NCBI GenBank assembly: GCA_023133655.1
Contig: JAGLWB010000126.1
Coordinates: forward strand, 1-48,555
Direction of reading: 5' to 3'
Length of the DNA: 48,555 nucleotides
Origin: Bacteroidales bacterium
GTDB taxonomy: Bacteria > Bacteroidota > Bacteroidia > Bacteroidales > JAGONC01
Within the stretch, counting starts at the first letter, position 1. Each line of letters opens with the position of its first letter. Below are positions 23,407-39,424 of this stretch, one piece after another. The notes beneath the pieces were generated by a model. The model had not been told where the DNA came from and ran no database searches. It saw only the letters and a program-made list of their open reading frames with translations. The translations under genes and the position numbers were made by a program.

Positions 23407-24612
23407 TTAATCAAGTTCTTTGTTTTTTTTACCTGATTTAAGTGAAATGATTTTTGATATTTCAAGATTATCAGACACTAATGCATAAGCAATTAAATGT
23501 CCATTTTCATCTTCAACTCTGTTGAGTTTTAATTTTCCGTTGGTGGCCTGGCTTATCCCATACATACCCAGATCGGCAAGTGACCATAACGAAAATTGAG
23601 CTTCATTAGGAGTATCCTCATTTTCTTTTTTAAAGATATTTTTAATTTTCGCGTAAGCAAAACCTACTAACGATTTGAAATTATTTTGCTTAGCCTGTAT
23701 GTAATCGTCTGCCATTTGTTCTCCGGCATTGGCTGTATTTGCCTGAATATCAGAATGGTATTTCCCTTCCCTGAGAATAATACCACCATTTTCAATTTCA
23801 TTATCCGGAACGAGTTTAAATTTATTTTTTTTGTGCAATCCGGGCAATCTGTTTATGACAACCATTTCTCCTGCAATCAATTCAACGTGGGATTGATCAG
23901 GGTGTATAAAAACTTGTTCAGTTTTAGTGTTACTGATCTCTTCTGGGAAACTTTCATCATTAGTAACATCTGTTGATTGTATCCCGCCTTCCTGTGATTC
24001 AACAATTTCAATTTGCGGCTTGGGTTTAACTGCTGAAGGTGTTTCTGTTATTTTTGTACCTGGCTCAGTTGATTCTGTCAACACCTGATTTTTCTGCATG
24101 ATAAAAGCAGATGGTGCAAACAGCCATAAAAGAATTACAATTGCAGCAGCAATTCCGGTAGAATAATATAGTATTCTGTTCCAGTGGATGATGTTTTTTT
24201 TGAGATGTTTTTTGGATCTGTAAACAATCGTGTCGTCAGGAATAAAAACCGTTTTTTTGTAAGTTTCAAAGTCAGGCTTTAAGAATGGGTTTGCTGCAAG
24301 GAATTTATGCAGGATCAATGTATCAGTTTTTGGGAGGTCGCCTTCAAGGTCAGCTATAAAATAATCATGGTAGTTTGTGTGATTAATTACTCCAACAGAA
24401 ACGATAATATTTTTTTTTAAACGTTGTTTATTTTCAAATTGAATATTATTGTCTGGTGTCAGATAAACTAGCTCGAGATGATTAAACTCTTCTTTCAAAT
24501 CAGGATTTTGCTCCATAAACAAAATAAGATCTGCAACCTGGTCGGGTTTCAGGGTGCCTTCCAAATAATCAAGGAAGAAAATTTCATAATTGTTTCTGGA
24601 TAATGCTATCAT
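23407..24612 (-). CDS. Putative anti-sigma-like inner-membrane protein with duplicated N-terminal domain
   Basis: Two ~63-aa related units before one TM segment (ILYYSTGIAAAIVILLWLFAP); directly downstream of an ECF sigma gene. Confidence 0.6.
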   Translation of the reverse strand: MIALSRNNYEIFFLDYLEGTLKPDQVADLILFMEQNPDLKEEFNHLELVYLTPDNNIQFENKQRLKKNIIVSVGVINHTNYHDYFIADLEGDLPKTDTLILHKFLAANPFLKPDFETYKKTVFIPDDTIVYRSKKHLKKNIIHWNRILYYSTGIAAAIVILLWLFAPSAFIMQKNQVLTESTEPGTKITETPSAVKPKPQIEIVESQEGGIQSTDVTNDESFPEEISNTKTEQVFIHPDQSHVELIAGEMVVINRLPGLHKKNKFKLVPDNEIENGGIILREGKYHSDIQANTANAGEQMADDYIQAKQNNFKSLVGFAYAKIKNIFKKENEDTPNEAQFSLWSLADLGMYGISQATNGKLKLNRVEDENGHLIAYALVSDNLEISKIISLKSGKKNKELD

Positions 24613-24684
24613 AATATACCATTTTTTTCTGGCCTATATGCCTCCTGTTACTGCTTTTTGAAGCTTCCTATATATTTTATTTCT

Positions 24685-25170
24685 TCAAATAACATTTTCA
24701 ACTTTAACAATATAATTTTTCAACAAGCTCCTCCCTCTATAGATATATACTTTAACCTGCGCTTCATTTAAACCTGTAATAACACCAATTTCTTTATAGG
24801 AGTATCCTTCATAATCTCTCAACAAGATAACGGAACGTTGTATCTCCGGTAGCTTTGTCAGGGCTTCTTCCAAAATTTCTTTCAAATCATTAAAGTGATT
24901 ATCATTCGTAACAAGTGTTTCAAGTGCCAGGGAATCTTCAGTAAATTTATTATCTTGCCTGATATAATCAATCATAGTATGATAGGCAGTTGTAAAAAGA
25001 TAGGAACGTGCTTTTTCAGCAGCAATATCCGATACTTTTTCCCACATTTTTGTGAATGAATCCTGAACGATATCTTTGGCTTTTTCTTCGTCCCTAATAT
25101 TTTTTAGGATAAAACGAAACAACCTGTCGGCGAATTCATCCACACAGCTATTAAATTGCGCGGTAGTCAT
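24685..25170 (-). CDS. ECF RNA polymerase sigma factor
   Basis: 'DEEKAKDIVQDSFTKMWEK' (region 2) and 'LPEIQRSVILLRDYEGYSYKEIGVITGLNEAQVKVYIYRGRSLLKNYI' (region 4). Confidence 0.93.
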   Translation of the reverse strand: MTTAQFNSCVDEFADRLFRFILKNIRDEEKAKDIVQDSFTKMWEKVSDIAAEKARSYLFTTAYHTMIDYIRQDNKFTEDSLALETLVTNDNHFNDLKEILEEALTKLPEIQRSVILLRDYEGYSYKEIGVITGLNEAQVKVYIYRGRSLLKNYIVKVENVI

Positions 25171-25254
25171 CCAGTAAAAGTAAATATCCTGTCACATCAA
25201 TATAATGACGATTAATGATAAGAAAATGTTACAGGTGAAAAAATATTTTTTAAA

Positions 25255-27042
25255 TTAATCCATTTTAAGGACTGCGAGAAATGCTTGTTGAGGAATTTCT
25301 ACATTTCCAACCTGACGCATTCGTTTCTTCCCCTTTTTTTGTTTTTCCAACAATTTCCGTTTTCTGGTAATATCGCCGCCATAGCATTTAGCTGTAACAT
25401 CTTTCCGCAATGCTCTAACTGTTTCCCGGGCAATTATTTTCGTTCCGATAGCTGCTTGTATAGCAACATCAAACTGCTGGCGGGGAATTAATTCCTTGAG
25501 CTTAACACACATTTTTCGTCCGAAATCATAAGCATTGTCACGATGAATAAGCGTTGATAATGCATCAACTTTTTCCCCATTCAGTAAAATATCAAGCCGG
25601 CTAAGGTTGGCAGGTTTATATTCTGATGGGTGATAGTCGAAAGAGGCATAACCTCTGGAAATGCTTTTTAATTTATCGTAAAAATCGAATACAATTTCTC
25701 CAAGCGGCAGTTCGAAAGTAACTTCCACCCTGTCAGTAGTCAGGTATACCTGATTTTTTAGTGTTCCTCTTTTATCGATGCACAGTTTCATAATTGAGCC
25801 AATGTATTCGGTTTTGGATATGACTTGAGCAATAATATAAGGTTCTTCTATATGGTGGAGATACTTCTGTTCAGGGAGACCCGAGGGGTTATGAACCTCA
25901 ATCATCTCACCTTTAATAGTGTATGCGTTATAAGATACATTTGGAACAGTAGTGATCACATCCATATTAAACTCCCTGTCTAACCGTTCCTGAATGATTT
26001 CCATGTGAAGCAGCCCAAGAAATCCACACCTGAAACCGAATCCAAGCGCAACAGAAGATTCAGGTTCGTAAAAAAGGGATGCATCATTAAGTTGAAGTTT
26101 TTCAATTGATGACCGAAGTTCTTCGTAGTCGTCAGCGTCAACCGGATACATGCCTGCGAAAACCATTGGCTTAATATTTGTGAATCCTTCAATAGGGTTT
26201 GCGCAGGGACGATCAACCTGTGTAATTGTATCTCCTACCCTCACTTCTTTTGACGATTTCACCCCGGAGATTATATATCCTACATCACCGGCTTGTAATA
26301 CACTTCTGGCTTCCTGTTTTAATTTTAAAATTCCAACTTCTTCTGCAGTATACTCTTTACCTGTTGCAACGAATTTAACATGGTCGCCTTTGCGTATTTC
26401 CCCGTTCATTATCCTGAGGTAACTAATGATACCCCGGTAAGAGTTAAATATTGAGTCAAAAATTAATGCTTGTAAAGGTGCTTCAGGATCACCTGTTGGA
26501 GCAGGAATTTTATTGATCAGTGCCTCAATTACATTATCAACTCCATAACCTGTTTTAGCACTGACTTCAATAATATCATCCCTGTTACAGCCAATCAGAT
26601 CAACAATTTGATCCTTAACGTCTTCAGGCATCGCGTTATCCAGGTCCATTTTGTTAAGTACGGGTATCACCTCCAGATCATGTTCAAGAGCAAGGTAAAG
26701 GTTGGAAATAGTCTGGGCCTGGATACCCTGAGTGGCATCAACAACCAGAAGTGCTCCCTCACAGGCTGCAATCGAACGGGACACCTCATAGGTGAAATCA
26801 ACATGCCCGGGTGTGTCAATCAGGTTAAGGATATATTTTTGTCCCTTATGGGTATATTCCATTTGAATTGCATGGCTTTTGATGGTAATTCCCCGCTCTC
26901 TTTCCAGCTCCATATTATCCAGAACCTGATTCTGTAGATCTCTGCCAGACAAAGTGTCTGTGAACTCAAGCATACGGTCAGCCAGGGTGCTTTTTCCATG
27001 GTCAATATGTGCAATGATACAAAAGTTCCGGATGTTTTTCAT
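25255..27042 (-). CDS. lepA: Elongation factor 4
   Basis: '[21 protein letters not shown]', '[15 protein letters not shown]', C-terminal '[22 protein letters not shown]'. Confidence 0.98.
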
Positions 27043-27081: not shown

Positions 27082-30000
27082 TTAAATACCTGATAATAGC
27101 TCAGACTGTTCAATGGGATAGTTGCCTTTATAAATATTTCCGAGATGCCCGTCGATGGCTATTAGATCACCCGACTTAAATTGGATGCCATTAATAGTAC
27201 AAACCTTTTTCTTTTCATTAACCAGTAAATCAATACAATTTACGATGCATACTATGCCGAGGCTGACGGCAGTAACAGCTGCGTGGGAAGTAGCTCCTCC
27301 TTTGGCTGTAAGCAATCCGGTACATTCAAAAATCATTCCTATATCATCCGGAACGGTATCCGGCCGGACAAGGATGTGATTTTCATCTGAGTGTTTTTTC
27401 CTCAAAAGTACAAGATCTTCTATATCGAAAGCCAACCTTCCGTTCAAAGCTCCTCCGCCAATTCCTATACCACGGCCAACCAATTGCATCTTTTCAGGAG
27501 AGGGATTGAAAATATTAACAATGTTTTGTTTTTTTAAGTAAAGATCCCTGGTTTGGAGGATAAAAACATCTTCTGGGTTTTCCGATTCAAATGTGAATTC
27601 AATTTCCTGTGGACTGTATCCATAATTCTCAGTCATATCTTCTGCTATCTCCCTGACTCTTTTGTAGATTTGAGGCATCGATAACTCAAGAGATGTATTT
27701 TGGACCTTTGTCAGTTTTTTTTGTTTTTCAGCAACAGGCAGGGTATGAACCAGGCCACTAACAATATCTTCACCCTGGCTACAAAAGGTGAAGTCGCCGA
27801 AGAGATTAACACCCGGCTTACGGTCGTTGGGATTTTGTGTAAAGATGACGCCAGTGCCTGAGTTTTTATGTAAATTGCCAAGGATCATTCGTTGGATGAC
27901 TACTGCGGTTCCCCACTCATCAGCAATTTGAAGGTGATCGCGATATACCATGGCTCTATGGGAAGACCAGGAATCGAATACGTAATTAATTGCTGACTTG
28001 AGTTGCTTGAACAGGTCTTGTTCGAAATAGACATGGTTTTCATCAAGTACCTTTTTATAGGCCAAAGCTATCTGCTTCATATGGACAGGCTCAAAGCTGG
28101 CTTTCTGGTCAACATGATACTTTGTTTTATGCTGCTGGATAACCTGGTCAAATACATCTCTTTCAATCCCATTCGCCATTCCCCAGATTTGCAGCAATCG
28201 TCGAAATGAATCCCATGATGTCCAACCGAAGTTTTCTTGTTTACTCAGCTCTTCAACCAGTTCAAAGTTCATCCCAACATTCAGAAAAGTATTCATGGCC
28301 CCGGGCATGGATATAGCTGTCCCGGATCTGACCGATAGCAATAATGGATTTTTGGGGTTACCGTACTCTTTCCCGGATATCTTCTCCAATTCTTTAACCT
28401 GATAGAAAATCATCCTGTCCATCTCTTCATTGATCCTTGCATGATTAGAAATAGCAGTCCTTGTTCTGAAAACCTCAGTTGTAAGAACAAAGCCTTCGGG
28501 AACAGGGAATCCGGCCAGAAATAGTTTTTTTAAGTAATATCCCTTAGATCCAAGAAATATCTGGTTGTCCATGGTTAAGGTTTCCTTATAAAGAGGGCTA
28601 ATTACCAGATCGGAGTTATATAACATCACACTATCGATCAATTCAGGCGGAAGGTTGTCAACCATATTCCTCAACGAATGTAAAATGCGGGAAATAAGAT
28701 TATCGAGCGGTTGAATCAGGAAAGCTGACGATAATATCTCTCTGTAAAACTTCTCCGATTTTTTGTTAAGCAGTTGAGACATGCTTTTATCATCATGCTC
28801 ATGTTCAGGCTTGAATAATTTTGGAATAACCTCTTTAAGCGGTTCTTCGTATGATTTTAAAAAATATTTGTTAATGGTTCTTTTAACATCTTCAGCAATG
28901 AATTGGAAGATATTGACGTATTGATCTAAAGAGAAGCTTCGGGAGGTCAGGCTGTATTTCAACATTTGGAGGTTGGAATTAAATCCCTGGTTGTAAATAC
29001 CATCTAATTCCAATCCTTCCCTGAAATATTCCAGAATATTGAAAATTCTGTTAAGTGTTTTGGCCGAAATGTATTGGAGGTTAATTCTATCCACTACTCT
29101 TTCCATTAGCCGTGTGGCTATCTTTTCCAGCCTGAATGTCAGGCCAAGTGCTTCGAATTTATCTTCGCGATAAACACCGTACATTGAAGGAATACCAATA
29201 GCTATATGGCGTTTATGATATATATTCTCCCAGCCTTCACTTGGATCGGAATTAAAAATGATCTGTTTCAACAGTTCCATAAAGCGGTAGATCATTTTCA
29301 ACGACTTCTCAAAGTTATTGCTATGAAGGGCTTCGTCAAATTCACCAACCTCTCTGACATCAAGAAATGGATATTTATGCAGTATGGAGATAATATCAAC
29401 CGTATCGAATGAATATTTTTCTTTTAAAAGAGAATATATTTTTTTGATGTATTTAAGCCGGTCTTTATCCCTGGTGTTTTCATCCGGAAGGTTATCAATC
29501 AGGCGGTTAAACTTCTGTTCGTCCATATCCAGCAGGGCAAAATGGGAGGTCCCATCCATCCGGCACAAATCGTGAAGCATTTTATGGAGAGGATCATACC
29601 ACTCACTTGCCAGGTCGATTGATTCAAAAACATCAGGTGGAAGGGAATGTTTTATTGCGTCAAGGTTTCTGTCGTACCAGAAATTAAATATTTTCCGTGT
29701 AAGCTCAATCAAGGTGTTGTTACTCTCGGTATGGATCTGTTTTCTGAGAAAGTGAACAAGCCGGTCCTGTCTGCCCGACAATTCATCGATGGCAGTTGTA
29801 TAATTACGGATATTGCCTTCAGCTCCGATTTCATTAAAAAAAACCGGGAAAATTCTGGTTAATTGTTTGACACGTTTGAAATAGGGAGCAATATTGCTGT
29901 TGAGAATTTTTGTAATGTCACGCTGAAAGAGATCTGTATCGCTGATAAAAATTCCACCAGTCTTTAGGTACACGATTAATGTTGCCAGTAACTTTTCAAG

Positions 30001-31197
30001 TATCGTATGGGGATATTCAATCAACTCAAGCCAAACCCTGATGTTTTTGATGTGGTTTTCATTAACATTAAGCTGCCAATCCTGGTTCACATAAACGAGG
30101 CCCGGACTCTCGAAGCCAAAATCTATCAGCTTCTTCTCAAAATGAGCAACCAACGGCGTTTCTTCCGTTGTGTCAAGATCAATAATTTTTTTACCAAGTG
30201 TAAGGAGATAATCAAGGACCGACGAAATATGGTCACCTCGAAGCTCTTCCGAAAGGTTTAAAATCAGATTGGTAAAGTCATTGACTTCATCGTAAGGGAT
30301 TTCGTCAAGGGCGTTTCGCAACATTTTGTTAATATCCCAGATCAACCTGTTTTGAAGGTGAGCCATGCCCGGCAAGTGCAGGAGATAAAAAGAAAAATAG
30401 AATTTTTCAATAAATGTATGAAACTCGCTTGTATAGTCTCTATAAGTATCTGCAATGCCGTGATAAGAAGGGACAGTTTCTACTAACTTTTCCCAGTTTT
30501 TTATAGAATTTGTATTATTTCTGAGGGTCTCGTAATACTTCCTGCCAAGTGTATCAATTTGATTACTATAGTCGTGGGTAAAGGCACTGTTTTTTTGTTG
30601 ATACCACTGCTCAATTTTTGTTGTTTTCTCCCAGAACAGGATATTCCGGTAAAGAATCTCCTTTGTTAAGAGAAAAATCTTTGAATTAAATTCGGGGATT
30701 AAAACAGTTGAGGAGAGATGTTTTATGAAGGATTTTGAACTTTTTATGAAGCTTAATTCCTTGGAAGCAAGGTTTTGTTGGAATATTTTAAGGGTCTTGG
30801 CAATTGTTCCGAACAGAATATGTTCCTGGTTAGTTACTAACTCTATAAATTCCAGAAGCGTTTGTATGATCTGAATTTGGAGTTCCTGCTTAATGTCAGA
30901 TTGCAGCAGGCTGTTAAATACATCCAGAAGGATGTCATAGGCTTTCTCAGCTTCCTTTAGTTTGATATAAAACCAGAAGTCACCCAGCGTGATCTCCCGA
31001 AGTTGTTCAACTACAAATCTACGATTGGAATAAGGGTGGGAATATTCGATCAGGCATTCACTTGCTCTTTTTTTAATGCCATAGTAAGATTCGGATAAGG
31101 TAATAAAAAATTGATGTGACTTTGGGATCACGATATTTTTATACCTGGTCTCAGCCAGGTTAGCTGCCAGGGCTTGTGAAATAAATTTATCAATCAT
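27082..31197 (-). CDS. PEP/pyruvate-binding (PPDK-like ATP-grasp plus His swivel) protein with ~880-aa N-terminal extension
   Basis: C-terminal third: 'FLGSKGYYLKKLFLAGFPVPEGFVLTTE', 'LLLSVRSGTAISMPGAMNTFLNVGMN', 'SGTGVIFTQNP', 'LLTAKGGATSHAAVTAVSLGI'. ATG at 31197 preferred, with TATCTTTG at 31224-31217. Confidence 0.85.
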   Translation of the reverse strand: MIDKFISQALAANLAETRYKNIVIPKSHQFFITLSESYYGIKKRASECLIEYSHPYSNRRFVVEQLREITLGDFWFYIKLKEAEKAYDILLDVFNSLLQSDIKQELQIQIIQTLLEFIELVTNQEHILFGTIAKTLKIFQQNLASKELSFIKSSKSFIKHLSSTVLIPEFNSKIFLLTKEILYRNILFWEKTTKIEQWYQQKNSAFTHDYSNQIDTLGRKYYETLRNNTNSIKNWEKLVETVPSYHGIADTYRDYTSEFHTFIEKFYFSFYLLHLPGMAHLQNRLIWDINKMLRNALDEIPYDEVNDFTNLILNLSEELRGDHISSVLDYLLTLGKKIIDLDTTEETPLVAHFEKKLIDFGFESPGLVYVNQDWQLNVNENHIKNIRVWLELIEYPHTILEKLLATLIVYLKTGGIFISDTDLFQRDITKILNSNIAPYFKRVKQLTRIFPVFFNEIGAEGNIRNYTTAIDELSGRQDRLVHFLRKQIHTESNNTLIELTRKIFNFWYDRNLDAIKHSLPPDVFESIDLASEWYDPLHKMLHDLCRMDGTSHFALLDMDEQKFNRLIDNLPDENTRDKDRLKYIKKIYSLLKEKYSFDTVDIISILHKYPFLDVREVGEFDEALHSNNFEKSLKMIYRFMELLKQIIFNSDPSEGWENIYHKRHIAIGIPSMYGVYREDKFEALGLTFRLEKIATRLMERVVDRINLQYISAKTLNRIFNILEYFREGLELDGIYNQGFNSNLQMLKYSLTSRSFSLDQYVNIFQFIAEDVKRTINKYFLKSYEEPLKEVIPKLFKPEHEHDDKSMSQLLNKKSEKFYREILSSAFLIQPLDNLISRILHSLRNMVDNLPPELIDSVMLYNSDLVISPLYKETLTMDNQIFLGSKGYYLKKLFLAGFPVPEGFVLTTEVFRTRTAISNHARINEEMDRMIFYQVKELEKISGKEYGNPKNPLLLSVRSGTAISMPGAMNTFLNVGMNFELVEELSKQENFGWTSWDSFRRLLQIWGMANGIERDVFDQVIQQHKTKYHVDQKASFEPVHMKQIALAYKKVLDENHVYFEQDLFKQLKSAINYVFDSWSSHRAMVYRDHLQIADEWGTAVVIQRMILGNLHKNSGTGVIFTQNPNDRKPGVNLFGDFTFCSQGEDIVSGLVHTLPVAEKQKKLTKVQNTSLELSMPQIYKRVREIAEDMTENYGYSPQEIEFTFESENPEDVFILQTRDLYLKKQNIVNIFNPSPEKMQLVGRGIGIGGGALNGRLAFDIEDLVLLRKKHSDENHILVRPDTVPDDIGMIFECTGLLTAKGGATSHAAVTAVSLGIVCIVNCIDLLVNEKKKVCTINGIQFKSGDLIAIDGHLGNIYKGNYPIEQSELLSGI

Positions 31198-31265
31198 TGT
31201 ATTATAGTTCTCTTTGCAAAGATACGAAGAAAAGGGTTTCTTTCGTGTTGTCAGGATTAACATGT

Positions 31266-31280
31266 CAGGTGTTACACCTG
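31266..31280. promoter_or_regulatory. Interrupted palindrome CAGGTGT-T-ACACCTG in the divergent intergenic region (candidate operator)
   Basis: 7-bp perfect arms with a 1-nt centre, between the outward-facing -7 boxes of the PPDK-like gene (31224-31217) and gap (31345-31352). Confidence 0.4.
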
Positions 31281-31344
31281 GCAAACATATGATAAGCGAA
31301 TAAAATTATTTTTTTTAACTCGTTCTTTATATTTAATTTAAATG

Positions 31345-31352
31345 TACTTTTG
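31345..31352 (+). promoter_or_regulatory. -7 box TACTTTTG upstream of gap
   Basis: Matches TAnnTTTG; 54 nt upstream of the gap ATG. Confidence 0.5.
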
Positions 31353-31406
31353 CAGCTCTTTATTTAGATTGAATACTAATAGTGAAAAATAAAAATCAAA
31401 GAAACA

Positions 31407-32408
31407 ATGACTAAAATAAAAGTTGCAATTAATGGATTTGGGCGTATTGGCAGGAATGTGCTAAAAATTGCCCTTGAACGTGACAATATTGATATTGTGG
31501 GAATCAACGACCTGACAAACACAAACGTGCTTGCTCATCTTCTGAAATATGACTCCACACAAGGGAAATTTAATGGTACGGTTGATCATAATGATAACAG
31601 TTTGATAATTAACGGTAAAAAAGTTTTTGTTTCGGCAGAAAGGAATCCCGCTAATATCCCCTGGGCCGAAACGCCTGATGTGGTGGTTGAAGCAACCGGT
31701 ATTTTCCGGTCAAAAGAGGGCGCAAAAGGGGGATATGGTGACCACTTGAAAAATGGCGCAAAGAAAGTAGTTTTGACTGTGCCTGCTAAAGATGAAATTG
31801 ACAGAATGGTTGTTTTGGGTGTAAATGATAATGACCTTCGTGATACGGATCAATACGTTTCGAATGCTTCCTGTACTACTAATTGCCTCGCCCCGGTTGC
31901 CAAGGTGTTGAATGATAGATTTGGTATAGAAAATGGATTAATGACTACAATCCATGCTTATACCAATGATCAAAGCATTTTGGATGCCCCTCATGCTGAC
32001 TTGAGGAGAGCACGTTCGGCTGCTGTTTCACAAATTCCAACAACAACAGGTGCTGCCAAAGCTGTTGGTAAGATAATTCCTGAGCTGAAAGGTAAACTTG
32101 ATGGGATGGCGGTCAGGGTGCCAACGCCAACGGGATCGCTCGTAGATCTGGTGGTTAATTTAAAGGTGGAAATTACCAAAGAGGAGATCAATCAGGCCAT
32201 GAAGGAAGCTGCTGAGGGCCCGATGAAAGGAATACTTGAATATACAGAAGACCCTATCGTCTCTGTCGATATTATTCACAACCCGCACTCTTCAATCTTT
32301 GACGCACAAAGTACCATGGTTTTGGGTAAAACAGCCAAAATTCTTTCATGGTACGATAACGAATGGGGGTATTCTTGCAGGGTAGTTGACCTGATAGAAA
32401 GGCTTTAA
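31407..32408 (+). CDS. gap: Glyceraldehyde-3-phosphate dehydrogenase, type I
   Basis: 'KVAINGFGRIGRNVLK', 'SNASCTTNCLAPVAKVL', 'SWYDNEWGYSCRVVDLI'. Confidence 0.98.
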   Translation: MTKIKVAINGFGRIGRNVLKIALERDNIDIVGINDLTNTNVLAHLLKYDSTQGKFNGTVDHNDNSLIINGKKVFVSAERNPANIPWAETPDVVVEATGIFRSKEGAKGGYGDHLKNGAKKVVLTVPAKDEIDRMVVLGVNDNDLRDTDQYVSNASCTTNCLAPVAKVLNDRFGIENGLMTTIHAYTNDQSILDAPHADLRRARSAAVSQIPTTTGAAKAVGKIIPELKGKLDGMAVRVPTPTGSLVDLVVNLKVEITKEEINQAMKEAAEGPMKGILEYTEDPIVSVDIIHNPHSSIFDAQSTMVLGKTAKILSWYDNEWGYSCRVVDLIERL

Positions 32409-32440: not shown

Positions 32441-35044
32441 CTATCTTAAAAGATGTATTGATCCCTGGATAGTCCGTTTTTTGGGACCTTCCAGGGTGAT
32501 TTCATACACTTCGCATACATAGAAGTATACACCTTCAGTGCAGTCCCGGTTGGTTTGCACATTTTTCCCATCCCAATTTATTTCAGGGTCATTGGTTTCG
32601 TACACCACGCTGCCCCAGCGGTTAAAAATAATAAGATCTATTTTGTCAACAGAAGTATAGGGGAAAGGAACGAAATAATCATTAAATCCGTCTCCGTTGG
32701 GCGTAAATACGTTGGGAAGGGAATAGAGAGAGCAACTATCAATGCTAACACAAACAAGATTACTGAAATCGCTTTGGTTACCAGCTGTATCAAGGGCTGT
32801 TACTGCGTAGCACCCGGCAATAGAAGCTAGATTAGCATGAACGTAACTGGTATCTGAGGCACTTAAAAGTGAATCGAGAATATACATATCACTATTCAGA
32901 AGAGAAGTATAGTAGATATAGTATTTTTCCACATCGTCCGCACAATAATTATTAGGATTGGTCCATATTAAAATATTTGCTACCCTATCGCAATCAGTAT
33001 TAATAAAAAGTTCAGGTGGGCAAGGAGGCACATTATCGCGTGGTTTACCGCAGGCGATCTGTGAATAGTTCACGATTGGGTCAATGATACCGGTCGATGA
33101 GTAATTACCGATCCCCTTTACCATGTAACAATAGGTTTGGCCATTGATCAGGGCAGAATCGTTGTAAACCGGGGTAGTACTCCAGCCAATTGAATCATAC
33201 TCCTGGGTGTCGGGATTTTCGCGATAGATTACAAATGTGTCGTTAACCCATGGTACATAAGGCTCGAAATTAAGTATCATCATATTATCGGAAGACTCAA
33301 GTGATAAAAACAGGGATGATGCTATTTGTGTTGACCCTACCAGAAATCTATTTTCGGGCTCATCATTGTAAAGGTCGATTCGGTAACTTGATGGGAATTC
33401 CATCGTGTTAACCGGAGTATGGTAATAAATAGTATCATCCAACCCGGTCATCAGCGAATCAATAAGCATAAGGTTGTTCCCCCAGAAGTTATCTGCATAG
33501 TTAATGAGATACTTATATGGGCCAGGAGCTAATATTGTGTCCATTTCTGTTGGTTTTGACCAGGCAACGTATGTTTCCCCATTATTAAAATCTGTGGCCT
33601 CAATACTAACATTTGTAATAATCGGAATATCTTTTTTTAAGGAGGCACACGTTTCGTTTGAAGCATAGCTTTCTGCCTGATCGGGATAGAATGCAATCAA
33701 CCGATAACAGTAGTCCAAGCCGTTTATTAACCCCATTCCTGAGTTATCATCAAATAAATTGGTATCGTTAATTGAGTTTATTTCTGCTATTTGTTTAAAC
33801 CCGGCACTAGGTGGGATCCCGGTTTCGCAGTATCCCGGCTCAAAACCTGAAGGCCCGAAACGTCGATAAATTTTATAACCAATTGCATTGGAACAAGTGC
33901 TTTTATTCCATTCAAGGTAAATTGAATTCCCAATAGGCAAGGCGGTTAGGTTTTCAGGTGCCGGGCCATTGACTGAAATACTAATGGTTTTAATATCAAT
34001 TAACTGCACTGGGTATCCATCATCAAATGCTTTGAAATAAACCTGGTAAGGTTGCTTTTGGACATGCGAACAGACAGTATTCCAGGTAAAGGTAGAAGTT
34101 ACATGGCCGACTGAATCAATAGGTTGTGGGAAATCAGCCGGATTGTTTTCCATAACCAGCGGGCCACCTGTTGCGACAAGTGTCACAACATCATCTTCAT
34201 CTTCGTCAGTGGCCACTACATCAAAAGATATTGTTGAACATGCAACAACACAAGTATCGGACAAAGGAGATATGACCGGTGGGTTATTATTACAAGGGGC
34301 GATGTGTATTTGCATATCTCGTATGATCGAACTAATAAGGACGCCATTTCTCCATTCTTCGATCAGCATGGCCAGATTGAATTCTCCCTGCATGGTAGGG
34401 CTATCCCATCTAATATCACCGGTGTAAGGATTAAGGGAAAGATCACCTGGTGGATTATTCGGATCAGCCACATTTGGATAAACATAACCAGGAATATAAT
34501 CGCCATTTGCACCGCGGCAAACAACGAATCTGTAAGAAAGACTATCTCCATCCACATCGTAAGCACCTGGATTATGAATGTAAGGGAACCCTACACATCC
34601 ATTATCGATTGGGGGATTTAAAAGCAGAGGTGAATTATTAGGTCCCAGAAAGGGATTAATAACCAGTACGGTTTCGATATATAGAGGGATATTCACCGAG
34701 TTAGGAATATTCAGAATACCATAATTTCTGTTTGGGTCTTCGAGAGAGATGGTATAAGTTGAGGCTCCGCTGTATGTATGGTGCCCAACATAAACATTTC
34801 GCCTGATGTCATTTGAGAGATCTACCTTCTCTGTACGAGGAAGGATTGTGGAAGTTCCATCACCCCAAAGTATCTCCAGCTCGGGCCTGTCAGCAGGGCT
34901 GGGTGCAAAAGTATACGTTAGAATAGTCACCTCATACGTAAGCCCCTCAAGGTGCCTAAAGGTGATTTCACCGCCACGCTGATGTGTTGCTGTTACAGCC
35001 AGGTAACAAATAATTAATACGACTATTAGCCAGATTCTTTTCAT
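32441..35044 (-). CDS. Large secreted protein with gliding-motility-associated (T9SS type B) C-terminal domain
   Basis: Signal peptide; C-terminus 'SLPNVFTPNGDGFNDYFVPFPYTSVDKIDLIIFNRWGSVVYETNDPEINWDGK...GVYFYVCEV'. Confidence 0.9.
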   Translation of the reverse strand: MKRIWLIVVLIICYLAVTATHQRGGEITFRHLEGLTYEVTILTYTFAPSPADRPELEILWGDGTSTILPRTEKVDLSNDIRRNVYVGHHTYSGASTYTISLEDPNRNYGILNIPNSVNIPLYIETVLVINPFLGPNNSPLLLNPPIDNGCVGFPYIHNPGAYDVDGDSLSYRFVVCRGANGDYIPGYVYPNVADPNNPPGDLSLNPYTGDIRWDSPTMQGEFNLAMLIEEWRNGVLISSIIRDMQIHIAPCNNNPPVISPLSDTCVVACSTISFDVVATDEDEDDVVTLVATGGPLVMENNPADFPQPIDSVGHVTSTFTWNTVCSHVQKQPYQVYFKAFDDGYPVQLIDIKTISISVNGPAPENLTALPIGNSIYLEWNKSTCSNAIGYKIYRRFGPSGFEPGYCETGIPPSAGFKQIAEINSINDTNLFDDNSGMGLINGLDYCYRLIAFYPDQAESYASNETCASLKKDIPIITNVSIEATDFNNGETYVAWSKPTEMDTILAPGPYKYLINYADNFWGNNLMLIDSLMTGLDDTIYYHTPVNTMEFPSSYRIDLYNDEPENRFLVGSTQIASSLFLSLESSDNMMILNFEPYVPWVNDTFVIYRENPDTQEYDSIGWSTTPVYNDSALINGQTYCYMVKGIGNYSSTGIIDPIVNYSQIACGKPRDNVPPCPPELFINTDCDRVANILIWTNPNNYCADDVEKYYIYYTSLLNSDMYILDSLLSASDTSYVHANLASIAGCYAVTALDTAGNQSDFSNLVCVSIDSCSLYSLPNVFTPNGDGFNDYFVPFPYTSVDKIDLIIFNRWGSVVYETNDPEINWDGKNVQTNRDCTEGVYFYVCEVYEITLEGPKKRTIQGSIHLLR

Positions 35045-35219
35045 CGTAACAGTAATAACGCCAGGAATCCAATAATTGTATACACACCACGATAGTAATG
35101 TTCAAAGGTAAAAAATTTAATCGTATTTTGTGAACTTTGAAATGTAAAAAGCCTGAATAAATATTAATTTTGAACTCCTTCCGTTGAAAAAATAAACGAA
35201 CAAACGAATTAGCAAATGA

Positions 35220-35249
35220 TTGATAATTCCTTAAATTGCTTTAATTTTG
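35220..35249 (+). promoter_or_regulatory. Promoter TTG-N19-TAATTTTG for relA/spoT
   Basis: TTG 35220-35222, 19-nt spacer, TAATTTTG 35242-35249, 35 bp before the ATG at 35284. Confidence 0.6.
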
Positions 35250-35283
35250 TTGTTGGTTACTGATACTAAGTTATTGATTATTT

Positions 35284-37530
35284 ATGTATACGATTAACAC
35301 AGAGCAGGAAAAAAAGGAGATTTTACTGCGGTACAGGAGGTTATTGAAAGCCTGGAAATCAGCCGATGGGGTAAAAAATACAAAGACGATACGGAAAGCT
35401 TTCAATTTTGCTGTTGATGCCCATAAGGATATGCGCCGAAAAACAGGTGAACCTTACATTTATCATCCATTGGAGGTAGCACGGATTGCTGCAGCAGAGA
35501 TAGGGTTGGGTGAAACTTCCATCATTTGTGCCTTGCTTCATGATGTTGTAGAGGATACTGATTATTCTCTTGATGAGATCAAACGACTATTTGGCGATAA
35601 AGTAACCAAGATCATTGACGGTTTAACAAAAATCGGGGAAATTTTTGATGCGACAATTCCTTCGATTCAGGCAGAAAATTTCCGCAAAATGCTTTTGACA
35701 CTTTCCGATGATGTAAGGGTTATTTTAATTAAGCTGGCAGACAGGTTGCATAATATGCGCACACTCGATGCTATGCCAAAAGAGAAGCAGTTAAAAATTG
35801 CATCTGAAACAATTTATCTTTTTTCTCCGCTTGCTCACAGGCTGGGGTTGTTTGCTATAAAAAGTGAACTTGAAGATCTTGCGTTAAAATATACAGAACC
35901 TGAAATCTACCTGACCATTTCTGATAAAATAAAGGATTCGGAGAAGAAACGGAAAAGTTTTATAGTGAAATTTAATGCTCCTATTAAAAAAGCTTTGAAC
36001 GAACAACATTTTAGTTTTGAAATTGAAGGAAGGTTAAAATCGATCTATTCTATCTGGAAAAAAATGAAACAGAAAGAGATCACCTTTGAGGAGGTTTTTG
36101 ATCTTTTTGCTATCCGTATCACCATCGATTCGAATTTTGAAGCAGAAAAAGTTGATTGCTGGAGGGTTTATTCCATTGTAACTGATTTTTACAGCCCCAA
36201 ACAAAATCGTTTACGCGATTGGATATCAACTCCCAAAGCTAATGGATATGAAGCCCTCCATTCAACAGTGATGGGTCATGAGGGCAAATGGGTAGAAGTA
36301 CAAATCAGGACAAAGCGCATGGATGAGATTGCGGAAAGAGGTTATGCCGCCCATTGGAAATACAAGAATAAATCATCAGCCGAGTCGGCTCTTGACAATT
36401 GGCTGAACAGGCTTACCGAGATGCTTAAAGCACCTGAGTCGGATGCATTGGACTTCCTTGATGATTTTAAACTTCACCTTTTTTCTGATGAGATATTTGT
36501 TTTCACCCCGAAAGGAGATATAAAAACCTTACCTGTAGGGTCAACGGCCCTGGATTTTGCTTACAATATTCATACAGAAGTAGGTAATCAATGTATTGGG
36601 GCTAAGGTGAATCATAAGCTGGTTGCTTTGAGTTATAAGCTTAATAACGGAGACCAGGTGGAGATAATAACTTCGAAAAAGCAAATTCCGAAAGAAGATT
36701 GGTTGAATTTTGTTATTACCGCAAAATCAAAATCAAGAATAAAAGAGGCTATAAAAACTGAAAGACGGAAATATGCCGGTAAAGGGAAAGAAATGCTTAT
36801 GGAGTTATTTAATCAAATTGGGATTGATTTTCATAAGTTGAATCTGATTCGCATTCAAAAGTATTATAATATACGGGGTGTTAATGAATTGTATTATCTG
36901 GCAGCTACCGGCTCTTTTACAATGAAGGAATTAAAGGCTTGTTTTCATGAGGTTGAACGATGGGGGATTTTGGGATTGTTAACCAGGCCATTTTCCAGAT
37001 CAAAACCGGGCGGGCCAAAAACACTTGATGAAACAATTGCTGAGAAAATCAGCAAAAATCCTGAATCATTGATCCTTGAAAGTGATATCAGCAAAATCAA
37101 ACATATTATATCTGATTGCTGCAATCCAATCCCTGGTGATGATGTGTTTGGTTTTATGATCTCAAAAAATCAAATCGAAATTCATCGAACGAATTGTGAA
37201 ATTGCCATTCAACTTATGTCGAAATATGGAAATAGAATCGTAAAGGCCAAATGGAAAAATAAAGAATCGATTGCTTTTCTTGCTGGTATTAAGATAACCA
37301 GTATTGACGAAAAGGGGCTTGTTAATGATATTACCAAGACCATAACAGAGAAGTTGGATCTTAATATCCGCTCGTTTCATCTTGAAAGCCATGATGGGAT
37401 GTCGAATGGGATTGTTATGCTTTACGTTTATGATACTAAAAGCCTGCATGATTTGATCAACCATTTGAAGAAACTAAAGCCTGTTAAAAAGGTGATTCGT
37501 GTTGACCGGATGGATGAAAAAATATTGTAA
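35284..37530 (+). CDS. RelA/SpoT family (p)ppGpp synthetase/hydrolase
   Basis: HD motif 'ALLHDVVEDT', synthetase 'RLRDWISTPKANGYEALHSTVMG', TGS 'VFTPKGDIKTLPVGSTALDFAYNIHTEVG', ACT. Confidence 0.96.
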   Translation: MYTINTEQEKKEILLRYRRLLKAWKSADGVKNTKTIRKAFNFAVDAHKDMRRKTGEPYIYHPLEVARIAAAEIGLGETSIICALLHDVVEDTDYSLDEIKRLFGDKVTKIIDGLTKIGEIFDATIPSIQAENFRKMLLTLSDDVRVILIKLADRLHNMRTLDAMPKEKQLKIASETIYLFSPLAHRLGLFAIKSELEDLALKYTEPEIYLTISDKIKDSEKKRKSFIVKFNAPIKKALNEQHFSFEIEGRLKSIYSIWKKMKQKEITFEEVFDLFAIRITIDSNFEAEKVDCWRVYSIVTDFYSPKQNRLRDWISTPKANGYEALHSTVMGHEGKWVEVQIRTKRMDEIAERGYAAHWKYKNKSSAESALDNWLNRLTEMLKAPESDALDFLDDFKLHLFSDEIFVFTPKGDIKTLPVGSTALDFAYNIHTEVGNQCIGAKVNHKLVALSYKLNNGDQVEIITSKKQIPKEDWLNFVITAKSKSRIKEAIKTERRKYAGKGKEMLMELFNQIGIDFHKLNLIRIQKYYNIRGVNELYYLAATGSFTMKELKACFHEVERWGILGLLTRPFSRSKPGGPKTLDETIAEKISKNPESLILESDISKIKHIISDCCNPIPGDDVFGFMISKNQIEIHRTNCEIAIQLMSKYGNRIVKAKWKNKESIAFLAGIKITSIDEKGLVNDITKTITEKLDLNIRSFHLESHDGMSNGIVMLYVYDTKSLHDLINHLKKLKPVKKVIRVDRMDEKIL

Positions 37531-37647
37531 CACCGAAGTAGCACATATACAGGTAGTTACCCTCTTTTTTTTTGTAAATTCAAATTATTCTTATTTAAAC
37601 CAAATATCAATAAGTTTTTTTCATTATCTTTACACAAAAATTTTAGC

Positions 37648-38100
37648 ATGAAGGATATAGATAATGAAAAGGCAACCCTGGAATCAGTGAGGGAAATATT
37701 TACCGACTATCTTGAAAAAAATGGTCATAGAAAAACGCCTGAACGATACACTATCTTAAAAGAAATATATGCTACGGTAGGTCATTTTGATATTGAAACT
37801 TTGTATATCAGGATGAAGAACAATAAGTACAGGGTTAGCAGGGCTACATTGTACAACACAATCGAACTTTTATTGAACTGCAAACTTGTTACTAAGCATC
37901 AATTTGGTCACAATTCGGCAGAGTTTGAGCGAGCGTATAAATTTAGCAAGCATGATCACTTCATTGATATTGCGAGCGGAGAGGTTATGGAGTTTTATGA
38001 TTCCAGGATCACGGAAATAAGAAAATACGTTGAAGAAACCTTAAATGTGGAAGTATCACATCATTCTTTAACATTTTACGGAAAGTTAAAAGATAATTAG
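37648..38100 (+). CDS. Fur family transcriptional regulator, cysteine-poor
   Basis: '[32 protein letters not shown]...[19 protein letters not shown]' winged helix; '[16 protein letters not shown]' in place of the usual CxxC segment. Confidence 0.88.
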
Positions 38101-38122
38101 CCCTGATTGCAGGCATTTTATT

Positions 38123-39424
38123 ATGAAAATTGATGTTTTATTAGGCCTTCAATGGGGAGATGAAGGAAAAGGTAAGATAGTAGATGTTTTAACACCTAAT
38201 TATAATATTATTACCCGGTTTCAAGGCGGCGCTAATGCCGGGCATACACTTGAAATTGGTGGAGATAAACATATTCTTCATTTAATCCCCTCCGGAATAT
38301 TTCACAGCGACACTGTTAATGTTATTGGCAACGGGGTGATTATCGATCCTTACATTTTGAACAAAGAGATTGATAACCTAAGGTTGAAAAAGGTTAATGC
38401 ATTTCAAAATCTATTGGTTTCAAAAAAGGCACATTTAATCTTACCTACTCATCGCTTGCTGGATGCTGTTTATGAGCGGGCTAAAGGAAAATTAAAAATC
38501 GGATCAACATTGAAAGGCATTGGGCCCACCTATACCGACAAGGTTGGAAGGAATGGAATTCGCCTTGGTAATATTACTAACCGTAAATTTATTGATAAGT
38601 ATAATTTGCTAAAAGAAAAACACTTACGTATTCTGGAATCATATAAATGGGATGAGAAAGATTTTTTGATTGAAGGATTGTCGTTTAGCGATTACGAGAA
38701 AAGTTGGTTTGCCGCTGTTGAAAATCTGAAATCGCTAAAGTTAATTGATAGCGAGTATTTTATTGACCAAAGCCTTGTTGACCATCAGCGCATTTTAGCG
38801 GAAGGAGCACAAGGTACTTTGCTGGATGTGGATTTTGGTTCATATCCTTTTGTGACTTCAAGCAACACTACATGCTCGGGTGTTTGTTCAGGGCTAGGAG
38901 TAGCCCCAAATCGTATTGGGAAGGTTTATGGTATCGTTAAGGCGTATTGTACCCGGGTTGGAAGCGGGCCGTTTCCAACAGAACTTTTTGATACAACAGG
39001 TGAGAGACTTAGGGATAATGGCAAGGAATTTGGCTCAACAACAGGTAGGCCCAGGCGATGTGGCTGGCTCGATCTGGTAGCACTTAAATATGCAATAATG
39101 CTTAATGGAGTCTCAAGCCTTGTGATGACAAAAGCTGACGTATTAAGTGGGTTTGATACGATAAAGGTTTGTATTCACTATAAGGTAAATGGAGAAATCA
39201 TTAATTACCTTCCTTTTGAAATAATGAATGAAGATATCGAACCGGTTTATCATGAGTTAAAAGGATGGGAGGCAGATATTTCTAACTTAACCTCTTTGGA
39301 TGAATTACCACAGGAGTTTAATGACTATATGCGATTTATTGAAGATTTTGTCGGTGTTCCTTTTGATATTGTTTCTATCGGTCCCGGGAGGGAACAAACG
39401 CTAATGATCAATAAAAACCTATAA
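38123..39424 (+). CDS. purA: Adenylosuccinate synthase
   Basis: '[22 protein letters not shown]', '[14 protein letters not shown]', '[23 protein letters not shown]'. Confidence 0.98.

Follow-up and report, generated by a model that had tools for sequence, protein, structure and literature searches.

What could a dikinase phosphorylate when it has the catalytic domains of pyruvate phosphate dikinase (PPDK) and no domain for pyruvate? The question is raised by a gene on a 48,555-nucleotide stretch of DNA from a Bacteroidales bacterium (assembly GCA_023133655.1, contig JAGLWB010000126.1), the whole of which is referred to here as the window. Its product would be a phosphotransferase descended from PPDK, with a large helical N-terminal acceptor module in place of the pyruvate barrel and 3-phosphoglycerate (3-PG) or 1,3-bisphosphoglycerate (1,3-BPG) as the acceptor, and would work with glyceraldehyde-3-phosphate dehydrogenase (GAPDH). 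We hold this reading tentatively and give it, as a whole, somewhat less than an even chance; the link between dikinase and GAPDH is very likely to be real, so that the enzyme probably acts at GAPDH's step of sugar metabolism.

The dikinase-like gene (27082-31197, minus strand) is an intact open reading frame of 1,371 amino acids plus a stop codon. It begins with an ATG at 31197, with which the starts of the homologues coincide, and an extension to a TTG at 31284 is mechanically possible. A chance reading frame is ruled out: the frame is open, its catalytic residues do not vary, and over 500 related stretches occur elsewhere. The parts of the gene are:

28570..31197, minus strand: N-terminal region, residues 1-876, all-helical, matching no family in Pfam, NCBIfam, or PDB
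29716..29958, minus strand: most conserved N-terminal block, residues 414-494 (GGxFxxDTDLFQRD ... FPVxFxEIGAEGxxR ... HFLRKQxHxExNN)
29125..29238, minus strand: highly conserved loop, residues 654-691, EGWENIYHKRHIAIGIPSMYGVYREDKFEALGLTFRLE, recognized by conservation, with 657-675 not confidently modelled
27526..28560, minus strand: PPDK-type ATP-grasp domain, residues 880-1224, found by Pfam, phmmer, foldseek, and alignment
27118..27486, minus strand: swivel (PEP-utilizers) phospho-His domain, residues 1238-1360, found by Pfam and phmmer, with a foldseek match to 2fm4 (TM 0.85 normalised by target)
27283..27285, minus strand: codon of the predicted phospho-carrier His1305 in GGATSHAAV, an invariant alignment column

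A sequence-only reading of this DNA had described a dikinase portion of about 495 amino acids at the C-terminal end of the chain, preceded by about 880 mostly helical residues, carrying the phospho-His motif GGATSHAAV and lacking the phosphoenolpyruvate (PEP)/pyruvate barrel, and this description is borne out throughout. Pfam places PPDK_N at residues 924-1224 (2e-30) and the mobile His domain PEP-utilizers at residues 1271-1351 (2e-16), while phmmer against PDB aligns Clostridium symbiosum PPDK to residues 880-1218 and 1228-1365 (2e-74); the motif occupies residues 1300-1308, with H1305 at 27283-27285. No Pfam match to the PEP-utilizers_C barrel was found in the 1,371-residue chain, which stops 20 residues past the Pfam swivel match. 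A split PPDK, with its barrel encoded next door, can be rejected: the neighboring genes are lepA and a GAPDH gene, neither of which encodes a barrel, the genome holds no free barrel, and a complete PPDK on another contig is the only barrel-bearing match to TIGR01828 there.

Judged by its sequence, the catalytic half derives from PPDK and is intact. The residues active in the ATP-grasp site of the C. symbiosum enzyme, K22, R92, D321, E323, Q335, and R337, correspond to K885, R957, E1198, E1200, Q1215, and R1217 here, all of which are invariant across 44 aligned homologues, as is H1305. The catalytic residues have thus not been lost, a possibility that the sequence-only reading had raised; the sole substitution relative to the PPDK site, Asp to Glu at D321, is family-wide. 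Among NCBIfam models the protein scores 364 bits with PPDK (TIGR01828), 75 with PEP synthase (TIGR01418), and 36 with rifampin phosphotransferase (RPH), the first two missing their curated cut-offs of 843 and 740 bits. In foldseek, the modelled part from residue 480 to 1371 can be superposed on the PPDK structure 1kbl (E 7e-33, root-mean-square deviation 3.2 over 540 columns). From these residues we infer dikinase chemistry, in which ATP would be converted to AMP with phosphate passing through the swivel His.

The most informative observation, and one that the sequence-only reading did not mention, is a repeated and specific association with GAPDH, which narrows the range of possible acceptors. 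Of 86 contexts, 65 have a GAPDH gene close to the dikinase, and 3 arrangements recur, defined on a broader set of contexts than these 86. In arrangement A the dikinase is divergent from an ordinary gapA, often head-to-head with a gap of about 90-260 bp and sometimes with a few intervening genes. In arrangement B a long GAPDH (about 414-420 aa) comes after it in the same orientation, in most cases no more than 120 bp away, and in arrangement C an ordinary GAPDH, the dikinase, and a long GAPDH stand in a row. The window has arrangement A:

31407..32408, plus strand: housekeeping type I GAPDH (gapA), the divergent partner, 333 aa, with catalytic Cys, His, and Arg kept and Asp at the NAD-selecting position 32
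31198..31406, no strand: 209-bp region between the divergent dikinase and GAPDH genes, common to both

In a tree of the dikinases the A lineages come together in a single clade with good support (29 of 47 rows, support 99), among B and C lineages. In a quick GAPDH tree with some long branches, the long GAPDHs form one clade and the upstream GAPDHs of arrangement C another, and the divergent GAPDHs of arrangement A nest among the housekeeping gapA of dikinase-negative relatives. Since the 3 arrangements involve 3 separate GAPDH clades, the dikinase has been placed beside 3 different GAPDHs.

Co-occurrence across genomes follows the same association. A profile search detected the long GAPDH in 18 of the 393 genomes sampled from the order, all of them among the 33 that carry the dikinase (hypergeometric p 2e-22, a value inflated by genome relatedness, with 13 genera involved). 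When 22 dikinase-positive and 18 dikinase-negative genomes were compared, each of the former had 2-3 GAPDH copies and 17 of the latter had one. Ten positives carry the long GAPDH and 10 others a 480-aa-type GAPDH, never both, and the remaining 2 have only a second ordinary copy. This 480-aa type (NF006139; for example L167:6151-7716, in G000 C205) also occurs in 1 of the negatives. The linkage might be mere co-expression of central-metabolism genes, the enzyme itself acting elsewhere, for example in translation, given that lepA lies directly downstream in the window and is found in 25 contexts overall. We consider this very unlikely, because GAPDH is the only gene to recur with different paralogues and in independent arrangements, and because none of the 393 genomes was found to have the long GAPDH while lacking the dikinase.

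The GAPDH paralogues themselves may indicate a direction. The long GAPDH keeps the catalytic Cys, His, Thr, and Arg and has about 80 extra residues; its Asp32 is replaced by Val, Ile, or Thr, and the 480-aa type has Thr at this position. The replacement of the NAD-selecting Asp32 in both suggests that they may use NADP, which would fit the anabolic direction. Other bacteria have separate catabolic and anabolic GAPDHs, such as GapA and GapB of Bacillus subtilis, and the multiple GAPDHs of dikinase-positive genomes, compared by analogy, resemble such pairs.

The N-terminal module may be what binds the acceptor. Residues 1-876 have no family match by sequence in Pfam, NCBIfam, or PDB; Pfam matches of individual members are spread over 45 unrelated families and were taken as helical noise. 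AlphaFold2, run with the 44 homologues, predicts an all-helical structure (mean pLDDT 83.4), for which foldseek against PDB returned only generic helical-repeat (HEAT-like) proteins (exportins, importins, and designed repeats) at query-normalised TM below 0.2, so that no fold was assigned. Mean column conservation is about 0.4 at residues 80-240 and rises to about 0.85 at 401-480 and 0.81 at 641-680, so that these charged blocks match the catalytic domains (0.6-0.88). Conserved motifs include DTDLFQRD, FPVxFxEIGAEG, HFLRKQxHxExNN, and WExIYxKRHxAxGIPSMYGxYxExKFEA. Residues 456-458, which are invariant, and 657-675 have low pLDDT although they lie inside conserved blocks. Being highly conserved yet unmodelled without a ligand, these loops may form a ligand-dependent substrate site, and residues 1-876 are probably an acceptor- or partner-binding module.

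The same module can be read as a scaffold for a regulator. A precedent is VadK (Rv1127c) of Mycobacterium tuberculosis, a derivative of PPDK that has no barrel and phosphorylates itself; its gene lies close to those of the methylcitrate cycle, with whose enzymes it interacts (PMC13400623). By this precedent the swivel His of the window protein would be autophosphorylated according to ATP, AMP, and Pi levels, and the helical scaffold would bind or phosphorylate GAPDH, tuning flux. The N-terminus resembles only generic HEAT-like scaffolds, which agrees with such a role, as does a match to NF004531, the model of barrel-less PPDK, at 256.8 bits, though this falls under the cut-off of 456. VadK, however, has no large extra domain, and the core of the N-terminal module consists of invariant charged loops that look more like an active site. 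Control of 3 divergent GAPDH clades through one invariant surface is also less natural than a shared metabolite. We regard this alternative, the main one, as possible but doubtful.

A shared metabolite would probably be glyceraldehyde 3-phosphate or 1,3-BPG, because the partner in the window's clade is an ordinary gapA. The same observation, that this gapA is nested among the GAPDHs of dikinase-negative genomes, argues against another small molecule as the acceptor, a triose-level or otherwise GAPDH-related metabolite (for example glycerate, glyceraldehyde, or an erythrose or aldehyde/acid analogue) that the partner GAPDH would oxidise or reduce. The roughly 80 extra residues of the long GAPDH may mean an altered substrate, and both RPH (PMC4844700) and HpeHI (PMC12167813) show that the superfamily acquires new acceptors; even so, we think another metabolite unlikely.

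For a phosphotransferase acting on 3-PG/1,3-BPG, the following mechanism can be proposed. The ATP-grasp domain would split ATP (with Pi or water) to AMP and place phosphate onto His1305 of the swivel, which would then dock on the N-terminal module, where the invariant charged loops 414-494 and 654-691 would hold the acceptor. The most likely acceptor would be 3-PG, giving 1,3-BPG for reduction by the partner GAPDH; in transfer potential, an acyl phosphate is similar to phospho-His. The reaction would form an AMP-forming bypass of phosphoglycerate kinase (PGK), running mainly in the gluconeogenic direction, and the reverse (1,3-BPG + AMP + PPi to ATP) would be possible in PPDK-bearing anaerobes. 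Because PGK is present in 21 of the 22 positives, such a route would be parallel to PGK and energetically one-way, like PEP synthase beside pyruvate kinase. That the family is an AMP-forming (PPi-linked) 3-PG/1,3-BPG dikinase with a new acceptor fold, partnering GAPDH and serving PGK-independent gluconeogenesis or ATP recovery from AMP and PPi in anaerobic Bacteroidales, strikes us as conceivable, if on balance improbable.

Several points weigh against this proposal. The PGK of those 21 genomes, ordinary or divergent, leaves no pathway gap to fill, and we know of no PPDK-superfamily dikinase that phosphorylates a carboxylate. A helical solenoid is equally compatible with a protein-binding scaffold, and the partner in the window's clade is an NAD-type housekeeping gapA, no obvious anabolic enzyme. 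Finally, 4 non-redundant contexts with ample upstream flank have no GAPDH (L022, L166, L171, and L173), and in the genome of L171 (G695) the long GAPDH is encoded elsewhere.

Replacement of a known glycolytic enzyme does not account for the family. Replacement of PGK is unsupported by its distribution as given above, and for pyruvate kinase no pattern was seen. Replacement of PPDK is rejected, as PPDK is also found in 21 of the 22 positives (split over contigs in G520 and absent only from G544). Divergent PGKs of about 427-437 aa occur in 3 dikinase-positive genomes (L236:6680-7990, L237:6522-7805, and G031 C72) and are absent from all 18 negatives; the copy in L236 adjoins a glucose-6-phosphate isomerase-like gene, and in G660 a divergent PGK is the sole PGK found. 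PF03618, the regulatory protein of PPDK, was considered as a partner; with 4 of 22 positives and 1 of 18 negatives carrying it, and its gene near the dikinase only in G572, such a partnership is at most a clade feature. The positives with PF03618 are related, and in G572 this kinase/phosphatase (L166:3629-4447) lies 2 genes upstream of the dikinase; in genomes such as G572 it may act on a Thr near H1305.

The N-terminal module and dikinase are fused in every intact homologue, in a chain of about 1,360-1,420 residues. A contig search with a single sequence gave no matches, and the homologues came from an alignment-based search. The 33 of 393 genomes that carry the family are spread over many families of the order, and no member was found among about 395 further genomes of the phylum, a sample that includes few genomes of the same order. 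Nearly all other homologue contigs are titled Bacteroidales, Bacteroidia, or Bacteroidetes. Outside Bacteroidales, a Desulfobacteraceae bin carries the dikinase with a long GAPDH in slightly overlapping genes (L098:9983-15381), by horizontal transfer or binning error. The homologue of G009 (L010, L018:13472-13983) is split across contig ends, and one of its pieces contains stops; it is either a broken gene or an assembly fault.

In the window itself, the region between the dikinase and gapA contains weakly supported Bacteroidetes -7-like boxes (TATCTTTG at 31217-31224, minus strand; TACTTTTG at 31345-31352, plus strand), of which the 7.1-kb locus has 14 against 7.75 expected. Downstream of the dikinase (23407-27042) lie lepA, a sigma-factor-like gene (24685-25170), and a gene for a putative membrane protein, and upstream (32441-39424) are genes for a large secreted-type protein and RelA/SpoT-like, Fur-like, and PurA-like proteins; this block is conserved in relatives (L013, partly L033).

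Few metabolic steps are as highly conserved as that of GAPDH and PGK. For a dedicated dikinase to have become tied to 3 different GAPDHs implies that anaerobic bacteria of gut, rumen, and sediment have either an undescribed enzymatic way around PGK or an equally undescribed control of GAPDH by phospho-His, and with the family, the partner, and candidate residues for mutation defined, the question is directly testable. The module of about 870 residues is in addition a protein region without a described family. We found no paper, curated family, or solved structure for this architecture or its link to GAPDH, and within the PPDK/RPH/VadK superfamily the protein represents a new branch, whose acceptor or partner module is likewise new.

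How this branch compares with known systems can be followed domain by domain. With PGK it would share the hypothetical substrate 3-PG/1,3-BPG; PGK is ADP-forming, has no sequence relation to it, and is encoded separately in the genome. It shares with PPDK (TIGR01828; 1kbl) the ATP-grasp and swivel domains (about 31% identity), the catalytic residues, and the order of ATP-grasp then His, but lacks the C-terminal PEP/pyruvate barrel and has an 870-aa helical N-terminus. Glucan water dikinase also has a non-pyruvate acceptor module ahead of its catalytic domains, but its His domain precedes the ATP-grasp and it carries carbohydrate-binding modules, whereas here the His domain follows and Pfam found no such module. 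In RPH the acceptor module sits between the ATP-grasp and His domains, where the window protein has nothing domain-sized. What is common to the window protein, RPH, and the two-component dikinases HpeHI and PpsAB is an ATP-grasp domain, a swivel His, a non-pyruvate acceptor module, and the ATP-to-AMP logic (PMC4844700, PMC12167813). The match to RPH is confined to the ATP-grasp and His domains (36 bits in NCBIfam, TM 0.21 in foldseek). VadK is about 490 aa long, without a helical N-terminus, and tied to the methylcitrate cycle, whereas the window protein has 876 further, mostly ordered residues. The two have in common PPDK-type ATP-grasp and swivel domains, the absence of a barrel, and a gene beside those of linked enzymes (PMC13400623). 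The proposal of a dikinase with a non-pyruvate acceptor, made in the sequence-only reading, is supported. Glucan water dikinase and RPH, to whose logic that reading likened the protein, are not its closest relatives, since its catalytic domains are of the PPDK type (364 bits versus 36 for RPH), and the nearest described logic is that of VadK, a barrel-less PPDK derivative.

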